This document shows, piece after piece, positions 555 to 8,789 of a stretch of 30,784 nt of DNA (within the stretch, counting starts at the first letter, position 1; the number at the start of each line of letters is the position of its first letter). This DNA is from a virus. The DNA lies in the IMG/VR virus record IMGVR_UViG_3300045911_000285, positions 1-30,784 of that record; one strand, given 5' to 3'. Under the pieces are notes generated by a model, which did not search any database, was not told where the DNA came from, and worked only from the letters and a program-made list of their open reading frames with translations. Made by a program: the position numbers and the translations under genes.

Positions 555-1010
555 TTACAGCAATACCCGCTTCTCGTTTACCACAAAGGTTAACACGAAA
601 TTAAAGTTGTCGCTAGAGGTACGGCTCAACGCGCCCGGTTCTACTTTTTGCAACCAGCAACCAAGGTATTCATTGACTGATACTACCCTGCCGTTTGGAG
701 CAAGCTTCCGTACTACAATTCGCTGGGTAATGTCTTCCCAAAGACTACCAGTACCTGTCCGGCGATTTTGCACCCTATTGTACAACGTATCAAACCAAGC
801 ATCGCGATCGTCTGACCGCTGTAGGCAAGTGATGACCAGCTCGCTTATCATCGCGCGGCCAGGTGTTTTGACCGGACCGTTTGCACCACCATGCTCAGAA
901 ATTTCAGCCTCCTGGGTCGGCTCTTGCACATCTTGCACAATCACCTGTTGACGGCCATTGACTTCAATCTCAAAGTTGAAGTTTTTGATAAAATTACGAA
1001 GCTCTGCCAT
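555..1010 (-). CDS. Putative tail tube protein
   Basis: A 151-residue protein encoded 5 bases downstream of the tail sheath gene, the usual place for the tail tube of a contractile phage tail. Tube proteins stack as hexameric rings inside the sheath and form the DNA channel. The sequence is rich in alternating beta segments (FNFEIEVNGRQQVIVQDV near residues 11-28 and NFNFVLTFVV near the C-terminus). This fits the two-sheet tube fold, and the length matches the family (about 140-170 aa). A strong terminator lies directly after the stop. Assignment rests on position, size and beta pattern; no diagnostic motif was seen, so another small tail protein is possible. Confidence 0.6.
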   Translation of the reverse strand: MAELRNFIKNFNFEIEVNGRQQVIVQDVQEPTQEAEISEHGGANGPVKTPGRAMISELVITCLQRSDDRDAWFDTLYNRVQNRRTGTGSLWEDITQRIVVRKLAPNGRVVSVNEYLGCWLQKVEPGALSRTSSDNFNFVLTFVVNEKRVLL

Positions 1011-1015
1011 GATGA

Positions 1016-2923
1016 TTATTGGTTGATGTTGATCTCAAGACCGGAAGGTGTCACGTTCAAGTTGAGCAAAATAAACTCTATCGACGTTACTGGAACGACA
1101 TAAAGCTCGCTTCGCCAAATACCATTGTCAAGGTCTGCGGAGGTGTTAATCTTGAGGTCTTCAGGCAAGTTTCGGGCCTCCAAATCCCCTTCAAATACCC
1201 ACTCACGAATTCCACGACGGGAGACCGCATCGTCCAGGACCGGGAAAATGAAATTATTGTAGATGTTGTTCCAAGTTGTCGGGTCGTTGGGCTGAAACAA
1301 GGCCACGTCCACGCGCCGACGGATTTCTTTGGCCAGGTAAATTACCACATCTGCTACCTCTGTTTTTTGTAGCAGGGTTGCCTCTGTCTGCGCGGTGCGG
1401 TTGCCCCAAAACACGACTTTGGGCGTGGCAGCACTGCCCAGCAGACGCTTGATCAGCGGATTAAGCTGCGCATTAATTTGTTGATCTAATGGACCGCCGG
1501 CATTGCTGTTTACGGCATTGCCAAGGTTGGGTGTACCAACCCCCAAAGAACCACGTACCACGCCAAATTCATTGCCAGAAAAGGCCGCCCAGGGCGTATT
1601 GCGCACGCAATGTGCACCAATTGCAGCCCCAATAGCTGAAAGCGTGAGCGGCTGACCAGTCACTGGGTGGGTTGAAATTTCTGGCCGTGAAATAAAACGC
1701 GCGAAGTAACTGTCGATCTGGGCGTGACTGTAAGGCGCTGTCCCACGCCGGTAAGCGATTTCGGCACTTGGGGTAATACCCAATGGTGTGCGCAGAATCG
1801 CTTGTACGTCTTTCCGGGATTCGCAATATGTTACCATCGCAATATCCAAATTCGGGCTTGCTTTGTCGGGGACGGCAATGTATGCGATGTCCGTCAGATC
1901 GTTAAAGACGTGTAAGCCAGTTTCACCAGTCTGCGACCCGATGTAGTCCGCGTCAACGATCGCCGCGGGGTTGTATGCCCCGCCGGAAAGTGTACCAGTA
2001 CCGGGCGCGATGGGCGCGTTAATTGTCCCAATTCGAACCACATAACTACTGGCGTTCAGACCTGCAATGTCATCAACGTTGGGGTTGGCGGGAAAGTCTG
2101 TATACACTTCCGTGAGGTCTGGATAGCCTGGACGTGTGATCACAATGTCCAAAAAGCCGGGACGGGCACTTGCGGCAGCGGTCACCGAGACCTGAATCCC
2201 ATTATACCCTGGCTGCGGACCTTTTGCCGTGAACGTGGCATTGTTGGCCGCTACGGCAGTCACACCGCCGCTGAAGCTGGACCCGCCACCGGTAGCGGTA
2301 TTACTGCCAGTAACCCCGACCGTAAGCGTGAAAGCATTTGCCCCAGCACCGCTTCCCACTGGCGCGGTTATTGTCACGACAGCGCCGAGCGCCGTGGCCT
2401 GGTAGCCGTGCGTCCCCGTCCCGGTATTGATGCCGTTGGCAATTGCCAAAGCCGCCGCAGGTTCGTTATCACCGACCTGGACGGTGTAGGTGTAGAGGGC
2501 TACGGGCGCTGGGGTGTTTACGCCAATGACAAAGTCAGCACCCGTATCAACCGCAGTGACGGTCATTTGTACCGTGGCCCGGGTCTCGGGTACACCTACC
2601 ACACCAATTAACACGCTGGCAGGTGTACCTTGGAGCGTGCTGGGATCGTCTGGGTCTGTATAGTGACCGATTGGGGCTACATACAGCTGACCGCCCGTAT
2701 CCAGTGCCCGGCGGACATAAAGCGGAAAGAGGTTTGGTGTGTCCAAAAATCCGCCAAAGTGTCGGCGATAATCCGCCCAGCTGGATACTCGAATGGCTTT
2801 GCCAATCTCGCCGATCTCGGTGACCCCTTGCACGGCCACAATCGTACCTTGCCGGCTGACCTGTGGCGGGCTGAGGTCTTGGATATTAACAATTGCCTTG
2901 GCTGCTCCAGTTGGTTGTGACAT
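1016..2923 (-). CDS. Contractile tail sheath protein
   Basis: A 635-residue tail sheath subunit. In contractile tails this protein polymerises around the tube and shortens to drive it through the cell envelope. The N-terminal region (about residues 20-90) has the family pattern: a GTI-AVQG-type strand, WADYRRHFGG, then PLYVRRALDTGGQLYVAPIG. The C-terminal part (about 450-635) has the conserved region with PTTWNNIYNNFIFPVLDDAVS and an edge-strand ending. Between them (about residues 105-220) is a Gly/Thr/Val-rich beta insertion, probably a surface domain on the sheath. The ATG at 2923 is in a 52-base gap after the hub gene that carries an AGGGGGTA-N17-CACCTATTTTG leader, also found before the protease gene. 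Confidence 0.88.
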   Translation of the reverse strand: MSQPTGAAKAIVNIQDLSPPQVSRQGTIVAVQGVTEIGEIGKAIRVSSWADYRRHFGGFLDTPNLFPLYVRRALDTGGQLYVAPIGHYTDPDDPSTLQGTPASVLIGVVGVPETRATVQMTVTAVDTGADFVIGVNTPAPVALYTYTVQVGDNEPAAALAIANGINTGTGTHGYQATALGAVVTITAPVGSGAGANAFTLTVGVTGSNTATGGGSSFSGGVTAVAANNATFTAKGPQPGYNGIQVSVTAAASARPGFLDIVITRPGYPDLTEVYTDFPANPNVDDIAGLNASSYVVRIGTINAPIAPGTGTLSGGAYNPAAIVDADYIGSQTGETGLHVFNDLTDIAYIAVPDKASPNLDIAMVTYCESRKDVQAILRTPLGITPSAEIAYRRGTAPYSHAQIDSYFARFISRPEISTHPVTGQPLTLSAIGAAIGAHCVRNTPWAAFSGNEFGVVRGSLGVGTPNLGNAVNSNAGGPLDQQINAQLNPLIKRLLGSAATPKVVFWGNRTAQTEATLLQKTEVADVVIYLAKEIRRRVDVALFQPNDPTTWNNIYNNFIFPVLDDAVSRRGIREWVFEGDLEARNLPEDLKINTSADLDNGIWRSELYVVPVTSIEFILLNLNVTPSGLEININQ

Positions 2924-4471: not shown

Positions 4472-4940
4472 CAGATACTCGAATGTTGAGATCAGGGTCT
4501 AGGGCAAGTGTCAAAGAAACATCTGCATATACTGGCCGCATGCCTTGCGTGGGGTCTGGCATGCGCGTGGCAACAGAAAGTGCTTTGACTATCCAAGTCT
4601 CACGTGGGTAGAGTTCACCCCACACCAGCTGCACCCGTTCCGGTGGGGCTTCAAAGCCGTCCGAATAAGTCAGGCTTTTGAGATACGCAACGGTTTCTTC
4701 CACATCTCGACGGTCTGCCGATGTAGAGTAATACGAAAGCTGTAGCTGAATCTCTGTGCTGCCACCGGTATATTGATAGAGTGGTGTATTGCGCTGGACC
4801 GGTTTTACTTCCTGCCAGTCCACATTCCGGCTTTCCGTGAGAGATTCAGGCACAAATTGGAATGGTACCCGGCGGAGGGTGCTCAGTCCAACCAAGTACA
4901 ACTGGTCCTGGGCCGTAGTTAATGAAAATTTGGCAGACAT
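4458..4940 (-). CDS. Contractile-injection-system tube-initiator-like protein
   Basis: A 160-residue protein resembling the N-terminal domain of Afp7/gp53-like 'CIS tube' proteins, which join the tape-measure/hub end to the inner tube. Matching pattern: PFQFVPESLTESRNVDWQEV at about 26-45, where the family has 'F-FNPeel', then a P..QYTGGSTEIQLQLSYY strand pair at about 54-72 and a YLKSLTY helix near 87. The C-terminal half alternates strands, with PTQGMRPVYADVSLTLALDP near 130-150. It begins at the tape-measure stop (TAATG overlap) and runs into the LysM gene. Family assignment is by pattern recall, not a search. Confidence 0.65.
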   Translation of the reverse strand: MSAKFSLTTAQDQLYLVGLSTLRRVPFQFVPESLTESRNVDWQEVKPVQRNTPLYQYTGGSTEIQLQLSYYSTSADRRDVEETVAYLKSLTYSDGFEAPPERVQLVWGELYPRETWIVKALSVATRMPDPTQGMRPVYADVSLTLALDPDLNIRVSDVRR

Positions 4941-7405
4941 TATCCTTTTAGAAAGTTACGTGTCTGAATTTGATCTGTTACCCGTACAAGCTCGCTGCCG
5001 TCAATCGCCACAACAATGTTTGGCGCTGGTGGGGCTGCTACGTTCACCTGCGGGGCCGGAGCGACCACCTGCCGCATTGCGACGGATGCCTGAGTTTGCG
5101 CCGCCTCTTGGGCGATTGCAGCCCCTGCAGATGGCATTGGAGTAATGGACGGACTGGTAGAAGCGTCTCCACTGATCCCCAGTGCCTCGTTCAGAAACTC
5201 CCCGCCGGGCAACGAGCCCAGCAGCCCGGACAGCATCCCCTTGAGCGACTCCCACGCATTGGCAATCCCTTGAACTATAGCACCGACAATACCCTCCCCT
5301 ATGCCCGTAAACCAGCTGATACCCGCCTCCATAAATCCAAATACAGACACAAATGCGGCTTTCACCTCGTCAATTGCCATCCCAATCGCCTGAAATGCGG
5401 CGACACCACCCTGCCAAAGTGCTTGAAACATCTTGACAGTACCGACAATTAAGCCAATCCCTAGTTGTAGACCCCAATTGATTACCGAGAAAAATGTACC
5501 AAACACCTTACCAAGCATACTGCCAAGCGAATTCCATTCCTCCAAGGACCCCTTACCCTTTTCCATACTGGGTAAAAACAAGTCAAACAGGCTACTTAAG
5601 GCAGCGCCAATGGGTACAATAGCATCTTTCCAAAGGCTTTGGAAAGAGCTAATAATTGGACCAAGTCCTTGTTTTAGGCCGTCAAAAAAGCCAGAAAAGA
5701 AATTCCGAAGACGAACGATCCACGTGCCCAGTGCGATGGCAAAATCCAGGAGGCCCAGCTTTTCAAGCGCAGCATTGGTCTTATCCGTGAAAGCAAAAGT
5801 ATCGGCGGTCATGTACTGGAATATCTCACGAACTGCGGTAATAATCCCCCCGATTTTCTGGAAAAAACCCAACAACCCACCTGACGGCTCTGCGCCCTCT
5901 GCTACTTTCTTAAACGAGTCGATTGCGTAAGTCACTGCCTTATAAGCAAGGGCTGCCGCGCCGATCACCAATGCAATCTTAATAAACGGCAGGGCCGCCG
6001 CCCAGGCTGCGGGCGCTGAAGCAATCAAACCTTTTACGAATCCTTGCTGGGCGATATTGGCCACGACCGTCTGAAAACCAAACTTTTGGAGCGCGATGAT
6101 CACCTTGCCTGTGGCCACTTGCATTGCACCCTGTGCTGCAATTACCAAACCCATTGTGATTAACAGCGCCGAAAGACCGGCAGTAACCAGGGCAACTGCC
6201 TTGCCTACAGGCGTGCTGACAAACCAGGCCAACGCCGACGCAACGCGCCCAGCGACATCCGCCAAAAATGAGAGGGCAGGGGCAATTGCTTGATAAATTG
6301 AGATCGCTGCATTGGCGATGTTTGCCCGCAATCTCGCCATCCGTTCGCTCAGAGTCTGCATTAACGTGTCTGCCATTTCAAAACCGACCTGCGTGCCTGT
6401 GACCGCGTCCTTAAAGGACCCTAATGCATCTACGTTTTTGATTAGACCCTGTGCAGCATTCACGCTCTCACGTCCAAAGACTTTAGCCAATAGCGCCGTG
6501 TCTTCCACCGCGGGCTGTAATAACCTCATTCGTTCCTCTAAGGTCAATGTTTTGTCCGCCAGCTTAATAAAGTCGATACCTGCGGCAGCGAGCATATCCT
6601 GTGCGTCTTTGGGCAAAACTGGCGCGCTCGCCATGGTTATAAATACGTTTTTTAGCGCGTTCCCGGCTTGCGAACCTTTGATCGAACTCATTCCAAGCAC
6701 CTGTATTGCCGCGTTAAGTTCCTCAAAGGAAATGTTGGCAGTCTTTGCCGTCGCGCCAGATTCTTTGATCGCGTCACCAATGAGCGTCGTGTTAACCGAT
6801 CCCGCCTGCGATGCCGCTGCCATCACGTTCATCATCCGGGTGTACTCGGATGTAGCAAGCGTCGCGTTTTTGGTGTCCACGCCATATTGCAGCATGGCAG
6901 TATTGAGTACGCCGATAGCCCCGGTGACATCACCGCCCATCGTTTTCCCGAGCGTAATCCCAACCTCTGTCATTGCCTGAAGTTCCTCTTGATTTTGGGC
7001 CAATTGGGGTCCCAAATCTGACAGAATCGAGGTAAATGACCGGTTAATGTCGGAAGCGGAGACGCCCATTTTACTGGCAGATGCCTTCGCACGTTCTCCA
7101 AGCTGCACCAGCGCCTCGCCCGCCACACCTGTAATTGCAGACACTTCCGTTAGGGTGTTTTCAAAATCCATCCCAGCGGCAGTGGCCGCAATAAAGGGCG
7201 CGGCCAGGAGACCACCGGCTGCAATCAAACCAAGTCCGCTTTTAATCCGAGCAAGACCTTGCTCCATGCTTGTAGCAAGCGTGTCACTGGCCTTGCTCAA
7301 ATCTTTCATCTTACCCTCAATATCGCCCGCGGTCTTTGAAAACGCGTCTTCAAGCGTAAACACAAGACCAAAGCCCAAATTGCCACCGCCTGCCGATATT
7401 GACAT
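4940..7405 (-). CDS. Tail tape measure protein (TP901 family)
   Basis: An 821-residue tape measure protein. It sets tail length, occupies the tube before DNA ejection and probably helps DNA cross the inner membrane. The TP901-type core is plain at about residues 60-300: a hydrophobic GLGLIAAGGLLAAPFIAATA stretch, MDFENTLTEVSAITGV, then conserved helical segments through GSQAGNALKNVF and MRLLQPAVEDTALLAKVFG. Strongly hydrophobic helices follow at about 380-490 (ALVTAGLSALLITMGLVIAA; AALPFIKIALVIGAAALAYK). The C-terminus is Pro/Ala-rich, then ends in a short strand/helix region. Its start lies 3 bases after the frameshifted chaperone stop. A length of 821 aa implies a fairly short tail. Confidence 0.92.
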   Translation of the reverse strand: MSISAGGGNLGFGLVFTLEDAFSKTAGDIEGKMKDLSKASDTLATSMEQGLARIKSGLGLIAAGGLLAAPFIAATAAGMDFENTLTEVSAITGVAGEALVQLGERAKASASKMGVSASDINRSFTSILSDLGPQLAQNQEELQAMTEVGITLGKTMGGDVTGAIGVLNTAMLQYGVDTKNATLATSEYTRMMNVMAAASQAGSVNTTLIGDAIKESGATAKTANISFEELNAAIQVLGMSSIKGSQAGNALKNVFITMASAPVLPKDAQDMLAAAGIDFIKLADKTLTLEERMRLLQPAVEDTALLAKVFGRESVNAAQGLIKNVDALGSFKDAVTGTQVGFEMADTLMQTLSERMARLRANIANAAISIYQAIAPALSFLADVAGRVASALAWFVSTPVGKAVALVTAGLSALLITMGLVIAAQGAMQVATGKVIIALQKFGFQTVVANIAQQGFVKGLIASAPAAWAAALPFIKIALVIGAAALAYKAVTYAIDSFKKVAEGAEPSGGLLGFFQKIGGIITAVREIFQYMTADTFAFTDKTNAALEKLGLLDFAIALGTWIVRLRNFFSGFFDGLKQGLGPIISSFQSLWKDAIVPIGAALSSLFDLFLPSMEKGKGSLEEWNSLGSMLGKVFGTFFSVINWGLQLGIGLIVGTVKMFQALWQGGVAAFQAIGMAIDEVKAAFVSVFGFMEAGISWFTGIGEGIVGAIVQGIANAWESLKGMLSGLLGSLPGGEFLNEALGISGDASTSPSITPMPSAGAAIAQEAAQTQASVAMRQVVAPAPQVNVAAPPAPNIVVAIDGSELVRVTDQIQTRNFLKG

Positions 7406-7408
7406 TTC

Positions 7409-8346
7409 CTAGCGTTTTTGATATTTGCGAATTTCTTCTTTTTCTAGCTCTTTCGCCTTCCCTAACATCTCCATATATCGCTCAACTACCCACATGGGTT
7501 CGCTTTCTATTTCTGCCATCGAGACGGGCAGGCCCAAATACGCAAAATGAAAACGTATGTCCTCAATTAGACCTGCCCGTCCAAGAAAAAACTCGGCTGT
7601 AAAAGCACGTTTACCCGCTCTACTCGGCTTGGATTTTCGGGGTGCGTGACCATGATTGTGGTGTCAATGTCACCTTCCAAGGCTGAGATCATTTCGCCCA
7701 GCCACTTAGTTTGCGGCAGAGTCAGATCGTCAATTCGCAGCTTGTTTAAGTTGCCTTTTTCGTCCCAGTAGCGCGGGCTCGCCATCTCGATTTTTGAATA
7801 AGCGTGCACACCTGCCCGGGCTAGTCGGCGGCGCAAATTTTCATTGCGTTTGTTTGTCAGCTCAATAAGCACCTCAGGTCCGCCTGGCATTTGCAACTTA
7901 AACTCTTGCTGCACTTCCTCAAAGGATGTGTAATGTGCATCAACTAGCTGACCTGTAGCATCAATAACTTTAGGTTTTCGAACTTTGAAATCGTTTTCAG
8001 TGAATTCGTATTCATGCTCGGAACACAATGGCTCATCAACTTGTGTGCCTGGCCAATTCATCTGAAATCTGAAATTTGGCGAAAAGTCAAAGCTGAGCAT
8101 CCGAAGCTGAATCAAGATCATCGCACGGTCAACTTCTAAGATACTGTGAATACCTAAAGCACCAGGCGATTCGACATCCCCAAGTCGTTTGACGCGATCC
8201 GCAAGGATCTCAGTCGTGGGGTCAGAGTCTTTCCCCCTGTGCGGGTTTGTGAGCGTGCGAATGTGCCCGGCTTTCATCGCCATTATTTCGCACTCAATAC
8301 CGCTTGGGAGAGTGAATGTATACGTTTGGGTATCTGCAATTGACAT
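7409..8346 (-). CDS. Tail assembly chaperone, predicted -1 frameshift product (gpGT-like)
   Basis: Predicted fusion of the chaperone's first 254 residues with a 58-residue extension read in the -1 frame from 7585 to the TAG at 7409-7411, about 312 residues in all. The extension begins LGRAGLIEDIRFHFAYLGLP and ends in a charged helix (KELEKEEIRKYQKR). It fills the only sizeable gap in the tail operon and stops 3 bases before the tape measure ATG, as the T part of lambda gpGT and its analogues does. An internal ATG (7512-7514) would give a separate 34-residue peptide as an alternative. The slip site, open frame, position and exact fit to the gap together make a programmed frameshift the better reading. 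Confidence 0.72.
7567..8346 (-). CDS. Tail assembly chaperone, unshifted product
   Basis: A 259-residue protein directly upstream of the tape measure gene, the classical place of a gpG-like tail assembly chaperone that coats the tape measure during tail assembly. A longer reading frame opens at a GTG (8385). That codon lies upstream of the -7 box at 8365-8372, so the ATG at 8346 (MSIADTQTYTF) is preferred; it is preceded by CAAAAC at the usual spacing. The protein has an N-terminal beta segment and a largely helical remainder. The zero frame stops at 7567, but a slippery TTTTTTC lies six codons before the stop and the -1 frame stays open to the tape measure gene. The chaperone role is inferred from position and frameshift layout; sequence similarity was not recognised. 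Confidence 0.75.
   Translation of the reverse strand: MSIADTQTYTFTLPSGIECEIMAMKAGHIRTLTNPHRGKDSDPTTEILADRVKRLGDVESPGALGIHSILEVDRAMILIQLRMLSFDFSPNFRFQMNWPGTQVDEPLCSEHEYEFTENDFKVRKPKVIDATGQLVDAHYTSFEEVQQEFKLQMPGGPEVLIELTNKRNENLRRRLARAGVHAYSKIEMASPRYWDEKGNLNKLRIDDLTLPQTKWLGEMISALEGDIDTTIMVTHPENPSRVERVNVLLQPSFFLDGQV
7585..7591 (-). promoter_or_regulatory. Programmed -1 frameshift slippery heptamer
   Basis: On the minus strand the sequence reads T TTT TTC in the phase X XXY YYZ relative to the chaperone frame (codons AGT TTT TTC TTG). This is a canonical -1 slippery site. Re-pairing one base back continues in a frame open for 58 codons. I did not identify a definite downstream stimulatory stem, though a GACGGGCAGG / GGCCTGCCCGTC complementarity spanning about 45 bases lies downstream and could form one. 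Confidence 0.72.
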
Positions 8347-8364
8347 GGTAATATTGGTTTTGGG

Positions 8365-8372
8365 CAAATATA
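8365..8372 (-). promoter_or_regulatory. Promoter -7 box before the chaperone gene
   Basis: TATATTTG on the minus strand, 18 bases before the chaperone ATG and downstream of the 8453-8478 terminator. No TTG stands at the standard 19-20 base spacing, so it is weaker or activator-dependent. It supports the ATG at 8346 over the GTG at 8385. Confidence 0.5.
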
Positions 8373-8452
8373 ACGAAAACCCCACGGCAATTAACCAATG
8401 GGGATACGGGTACGGTTGTTAGCAGGTTATTTGGTTGCCCATTGCGTTTGAC

Positions 8453-8478
8453 AAAAAAATCCCGGCGCAAGGCCGGGA
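8453..8478 (-). terminator. Terminator after the coiled-coil membrane protein gene
   Basis: 7-bp stem TCCCGGC (8460-8466) with GCCGGGA (8472-8478), then seven T on the minus strand (8453-8459). Confidence 0.85.
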
Positions 8479-8498
8479 CTTAATAAATGAAACGCAAC

Positions 8499-8789
8499 TT
8501 ATTTAAGTATTTCTGCAAAGTGATTAACCAGGGCCCCCGCGCCCAGGGCCCCCCCTGCCGCCGCTACCCACTGCACAATCCGCAATCCAGTACGCAATCC
8601 ATTTAGAACGTCCTCCAGGACCTGGACCTTAGCTTCAAGTCTGGCGACCCGCGAAACAAGCCCGGTTGAACCAAGGCTATCTCCGCGGATACTATTTGTC
8701 AGCTCTGCCACCTTGCTGGAAAGTTTCGCGACCTGCAGCGAAACACTAGAGATTTGCTCCAGCAGTTGGGCGTATTGATTCTCATTCAT
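8499..8789 (-). CDS. Coiled-coil protein with C-terminal membrane segment (holin/XhlA-like?)
   Basis: A 96-residue protein. Residues about 5-65 form heptad-like helices (ISSVSLQVAKLSSKVAELT; VARLEAKVQVLEDVLNGL). Residues about 70-90 form a Gly/Ala-rich hydrophobic segment (IVQWVAAAGGALGAGALVNHF), likely membrane-spanning. Coiled coil followed by one transmembrane helix resembles XhlA-type lysis accessory proteins and some small holins. No endolysin is visible beside it, so a lysis role is only a suggestion. The ATG is preceded by CAAAAC at 8 bases. A strong terminator lies just past the stop, so it ends the transcription unit before the chaperone. Confidence 0.6.
   Translation of the reverse strand: MNENQYAQLLEQISSVSLQVAKLSSKVAELTNSIRGDSLGSTGLVSRVARLEAKVQVLEDVLNGLRTGLRIVQWVAAAGGALGAGALVNHFAEILK

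Follow-up and report, generated by a model that had tools for sequence, protein, structure and literature searches.

Tail assembly chaperones made as a short and a long form are best exemplified here by gpG/gpGT of phage lambda (Levin 1993; Xu, Hendrix and Duda 2004; both via PMC5009743), which bind both the tape-measure protein and the tube protein and are not part of the virion (PMC5009743). In that 2016 review, T4 is singled out as the phage that departs from G-T frameshifting (PMC5009743). T4-like phages also have these chaperones, partly as two genes, as reported by Vladimirov, Gautam and Davidson (2022, doi 10.1016/j.virol.2021.11.003). In cyanophages, a comparison from 2010 found gp51 to be only ∼20% of its usual length (PMC3037559).

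The locus described here lies on the minus strand of a 30,784-nucleotide viral contig from a metagenome (IMG/VR record IMGVR_UViG_3300045911_000285), the whole of which is referred to as the window. It very probably encodes a tail assembly chaperone pair made through a −1 frameshift. The features on which this reading rests are the following.

7567–8346, minus strand: zero-frame gene (ATG at 8346, TAA at 7569–7567) whose 259-aa translation is the putative short chaperone form, with homology to T4 gp26 and the N-terminal portion of gp51.
7585–7591, minus strand: slippery heptamer T_TTT_TTC, in zero-frame phase and identical in 30/30 usable relatives.
7409–7591, minus strand: −1 frame from the heptamer to a TAG, the putative C-terminal extension of the long form (translation, extension alignments and AlphaFold).
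7519–7584, minus strand: stable RNA hairpin with the zero-frame stop inside it, starting immediately 3′ of the heptamer (−33.1 kcal/mol, z −4.98).
4940–7405, minus strand: tape-measure gene, 821 aa, the presumed client of the chaperone (PHROG 1533, E 5.8e-43; Pfam PhageMin_Tail, E 2.5e-24).

The sequence around the heptamer (7591–7585, minus strand) reads AG T_TTT_TTC TTG GAC GGG CAG GTC TAA, in X_XXY_YYZ phase, with five sense codons between the slip site and the zero-frame TAA. Counted from the heptamer, the −1 frame contains 60 residues, or 58 without the two slip codons, and its product is FFLGRAGLIEDIRFHFAYLGLPVSMAEIESEPMWVVERYMEMLGKAKELEKEEIRKYQKR. The frame closes at TAG 7411–7409 and is separated by three bases, GAA, from the tape-measure ATG at 7405, placing the chaperone gene directly 5′ of the tape measure. 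The initial annotation, made from the window sequence alone, was accurate on the phase of the heptamer near the stop, on the 58 open codons and on the three-base distance. It erred on two smaller points: a peptide started at the internal ATG (7519) would have 36 residues instead of 34, and the gap filled by the −1 frame is not the only substantial one in the tail operon, since 152 gene-free bases also lie 5′ of the chaperone gene (8347–8498).

Taken alone, the heptamer and the open −1 frame of the window are suggestive. The bare string TTTTTTC is common (12 copies in the window vs 10 expected), and an open −1 frame of 60 codons has a chance probability of ∼0.05. Only two in-phase copies are found among the 8,029 codons of the window, so that any one gene would be expected to carry ∼0.0025 of them within its final ten codons. 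It is conservation among relatives that, at the level of sequence comparison, settles the question of a frameshift.

Direct searches for relatives came back empty because the proteins of the window are too divergent: the window protein as query gave no matches in viral contigs or phage records by peptide-pattern search or tblastn, and the window tape measure gave none in viral contigs. Kin were reached instead through the terminase, which led to the gut phage MT121964 (47% identity). The tail cluster of this phage carries a homologous gene directly ahead of its tape measure, and this chaperone homologue, used as query, yielded 11 and then 28 IMG/VR loci (overlapping sets). Further loci came from a query headed by the window protein (one), from a genome assembly (one) and from more phage records.

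Among the relatives with an intact 3′ end, the in-phase TTTTTTC is identical in 30 out of 30 and stands 4–8 codons ahead of the zero-frame stop, so the conservation of heptamer and −1 frame proposed as a check holds in every usable relative. Their −1 extensions span 49–63 residues and end between −4 and +40 bases from the start of the tape measure; the 30 include near-copies of one another (e.g. L040/L041; L019/L034/L055). One related contig in which the frame is broken upstream (L017/L053) and one contig that ends early (L054) were set aside. L017/L053 has a premature zero-frame stop, with an FFFP motif then in another frame, and is probably an assembly error or a decayed copy. In a jumbo-phage homologue (L026), the heptamer is found 21 codons ahead of the stop.

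Pfam contains no family matching the zero frame or the −1 frame, and hence no Phage_TAC or lambda gpG family match was obtained. The term "gpGT-like" used initially thus fits the architecture and the probable function of the locus, not its sequence family, in which the kin are T4 gp26/gp51. The family link comes from PHROG 150. The window zero frame alone matches it weakly (E 0.019), while 10 of 11 window-family members match it, the best with an E-value of 7.9e-9. On the same profile, T4 gp26 covers positions 14–235 and T4 gp51 positions 13–280 of 282; judged by these extents, gp26 corresponds to the short form and gp51 to the long form. T4 gp26 and gp51 match each other at 99.3% in profile comparison, and cyanophage gp26 matches T4 gp26 at 99.7%. 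The cyanophage −1 extension matches the C-terminus of gp51 (97.5%), whereas its comparison with T4 gp26 gave nothing. The window family in turn matches cyanophage gp26 (hhalign 96.5%, E 8e-10), and the fused product of the window matches the cyanophage fused product over nearly its full length (97.7%, E 2e-12). Compared directly with T4 gp26/gp51, the window family gave an unconvincing single-sequence hhalign result and a profile result that was not significant; the link to T4 therefore runs through cyanophage gp26. Among viral models, the fold matches of the zero-frame AlphaFold model (pLDDT 77) are baseplate hub assembly proteins of T4 type, and a fold search of the PDB gave nothing significant, with the HK97 tail assembly chaperone ranked first at E 1.0. 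By these comparisons the window protein belongs to the T4 gp26/gp51 group, and the window record holds only one copy of the gene, against two genes in T4. In the family tree, the window occupies a long branch whose placement is uncertain. T4 gp28, which adjoins the T4 tape measure gp29 on its 5′ side, was tested as a counterpart and rejected.

In 80/80 IMG/VR cyanophage gp26 loci, T_TTT_TTC stands one codon ahead of the stop and is followed by an extension of ∼65 residues (the cyanophage gp26 loci are L072–L151, L063 and L067). The same T_TTT_TTC ends the gp26 genes of Aeromonas phiAS5, Rhizobium IC12, Stenotrophomonas Mendera and Vibrio ValKK3, and gp26 of Rhizobium RL38J1 ends with T_TTT_TTG. 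Substitutions in the cyanophage extensions fall on −1 codon positions 1/2/3 in the numbers 331/163/628 (28 independent pairs), which clearly marks the shifted frame as coding. In syn9 and Sf-FS3, the small downstream gene carries the annotation of a separate gp51-like gene; it is the −1 extension of gp26 and no gene of its own. The reading of T4 gp26/gp51 as two genes for the two forms agrees with the comparison made here and is already published (Vladimirov et al. 2022). Two Ackermannviridae homologues, from Salmonella phage Marshall (L070; GAA ATT TTC ATT TAA) and Serratia phage 3M (L071; CAG GTT TTC ATC TGA), have a −1 extension without the canonical heptamer, so that the shift site, if used, would be unusual.

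Membership in PHROG 150 also raises the possibility that the protein is a structural component of the baseplate hub and no assembly chaperone. The PHROG carries the label "baseplate hub", and earlier genetic work on T4 assigned gp26 to the hub (PMC3004832). The same source, however, counts both gp26 and gp51 among the hub assembly chaperones and reports gp51 to be missing from the final particle, and Vladimirov et al. 2022 identify gp26/gp51 as tail assembly chaperones. A short and long pair encoded directly ahead of the tape measure is, moreover, a hallmark of tail assembly chaperones. A structural role in the hub is thus improbable, though it fares best among the alternatives to a frameshifted chaperone.

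A second alternative accepts the long form and differs on its origin, with RNA polymerase slipping on the T6 run in place of the ribosome. A homopolymer is present at the site, and either mechanism could yield the same product. Six T residues are short for slippage by RNA polymerase, however, and slippage would not require the final C or the codon phase of the heptamer, both of which are invariant in the window family. The hairpin downstream of the heptamer likewise argues for the ribosome. The RNA folding 3′ of the slip site that had been proposed as a check revealed this strong structure in the window, and none of 200 shuffled sequences was equally stable. A downstream RNA structure common to the relatives was looked for and not found; their z-scores range from −3.2 to +0.4, indicating that the hairpin is local to the window and no conserved part of the system. 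In the window it is probably a stimulator of the shift. Transcriptional slippage is, on this evidence, very unlikely, and we retain ribosomal frameshifting as the origin of the long form.

The −1 frame could also be a separate small gene, started internally (for example at ATG 7519, 36 aa) and never fused to the zero frame. Five possible start codons, including this ATG, lie within the −1 ORF of the window, and the cyanophage counterpart is annotated in GenBank as a separate gp51-like gene. The relatives speak against it. Six of them (L019, L030, L031, L034, L045, L055) have no ATG, GTG or TTG within the extension, which therefore could not be translated on its own. For these relatives, this rules out the outcome that would have told against the initial annotation, a small peptide made separately and no fusion. 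In eight loci, a −1-frame stop lies directly 5′ of the heptamer and the frame opens exactly at it, so that the shift must happen there. The extensions of the relatives align with one another, and the conserved part includes the stretch from FFL[PSG] onward, ahead of any start codon. In T4 gp51, the domain that corresponds to the cyanophage extension is fused in frame to a gp26-like part. In profile comparison, the window-family extension has only a moderate match to that of cyanophages (40.7%, E 3e-4) and gives no match to T4 gp51 directly. AlphaFold predicts the window extension as three helices (pLDDT 88.5); this model alone has no significant match in the viral fold search. Together these observations make an independent gene highly improbable and favour the −1 extension as the C-terminal part of a fused long form. 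An error of sequencing or assembly, or a gene in decay, might be suspected behind the extra frame given a metagenomic contig and the broken frame of L017/L053, but this is already refuted by the 30/30 usable relatives from independent samples and by the cyanophage isolate genomes, in which the layout recurs.

If the frameshift operates as these comparisons predict, the majority of ribosomes would end at TAA 7569–7567 and release the 259-aa short form. A minority would slip back by one base on T_TTT_TTC, the two tRNA-Phe re-pairing from TTT TTC to TTT TTT, probably aided by the hairpin right after the heptamer, and would produce a long form of 312 aa whose C-terminal domain is helical. If the analogy with lambda gpG/gpGT holds, the short and the long form may both bind the neighbouring tape-measure protein, and the long form may recruit tube subunits through its C-terminal domain; as in lambda, neither form would be expected in the virion. 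The computation shows the sites, their conservation, the −1-frame coding selection (in the cyanophage loci) and the homology of the short form to T4 gp26 and of the long form to gp51. From these we infer the occurrence of the shift, its efficiency and the chaperone function.

The setting of the gene is that of a contractile tail, as initially proposed: the window has PHROG and Pfam matches to a sheath, a gp19-type tube, hub proteins and a tape measure. Its sheath and tube genes are located at 555–2923 (minus strand), 3′ of the baseplate hub genes, whereas the chaperone gene has them immediately on its 5′ side in MT121964, immuto and SP-15. Two candidate control elements were located upstream of the chaperone gene.

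8365–8372, minus strand: TATATTTG box, a possible Bacteroidota-type −7 element, 18 bases 5′ of the chaperone ATG.
8457–8481, minus strand: terminator-like hairpin with a T run (pattern scan), between the gene at 8789–8499 and the chaperone gene.

The Bacteroidota −7 consensus is TAnnTTTG, which the TATATTTG boxes resemble. Six such boxes occur in the window, all on the coding strand, vs 0.95 expected (448, 8365, 13208, 13843, 22591 and 29947, minus strand), most of them just 5′ of genes. A −33 element at fixed spacing is absent at the 8365–8372 box and was found at only one of the six. The boxes, together with the Flavobacterium and gut-phage kin, make the proposed Bacteroidota affiliation plausible, short of proof. 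With the terminator-like hairpin upstream, the genes from the chaperone to the tube may form their own transcription unit.

Six homologous loci carry their extension in the +1 frame: Flavobacterium immuto, Microcystis Mel-JY01, LR756508, Streptococcus GXN1, Rhodothermus RM378 and Bacillus SP-15 (L006:38470, L022:3761, L023:3737, L024:3710, L025:3656 and L152 near 3700). At the FF position, all six have TTT followed by C or T. Shifts of +1 and −2 give the same frame, and the pattern TTT.Y fits +1 in 6/6. The short forms of five of these loci, with SP-15 left out of the profile, match the window family more closely than any other profile does (hhalign 99.3%, E 3e-20), and the extension of the group matches that of the window only moderately (40%, E 3e-4). 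In the tree, the +1 loci fall inside the same half as the window family (100/99 support), which forces at least one change of label. On these sequence relationships, the direction of the shift likely changed within the chaperone family, proof aside. The long form may well be reached in three interchangeable ways, a reading we favour on balance: −1 slippage at T_TTT_TTC (the window family and cyanophages), a +1 shift at TTT.Y (the six loci above) and gene duplication (T4). Since the FF motif stays fixed while the direction changes, selection would act on the ratio of short to long form and not on direction. The apparent use of a +1 shift at TTT.Y by these six loci is possibly new, and is the sole part of the analysis that may be. 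If the +1 cases are true, the family offers a natural series on the evolution of shift direction with the product ratio kept.

The probable frameshifted chaperone of the window is itself a well-supported case of a well-known phage device, tied to gp26/gp51 of T4. It annotates the chaperone of a divergent group of contractile-tail phages and points to a systematic gap in annotation: in the genomes of cyanophages and related phages, the extension is either overlooked or entered as a gp51-like gene of its own.

Compared with lambda gpG/gpGT, to which it has no detectable sequence relation, the window has the slip site T_TTT_TTC, a larger short form (259 aa) and a contractile tail. T4 gp26/gp51 belong to the same family, with PHROG 150 common to both: gp26 ends just past the position of the window slip site, and gp51 runs on into a domain that shares homology with the −1 extension of cyanophages. 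T4, however, makes its two forms from two separate genes, and the window from one gene with a frameshift. The gp26 genes of cyanophages, phiAS5, IC12, Mendera and ValKK3 resemble the window in having T_TTT_TTC in phase near the stop, and in cyanophages both the short form and the fused product are homologous to those of the window; they differ in that the heptamer is one or two codons ahead of the stop (4–8 in the window family), the extension is slightly longer and sequence identity is very low. The immuto group shares with the window a homologous short form and an extension in an overlapping frame, which in that group is the +1 frame, apparently reached at TTT.Y.
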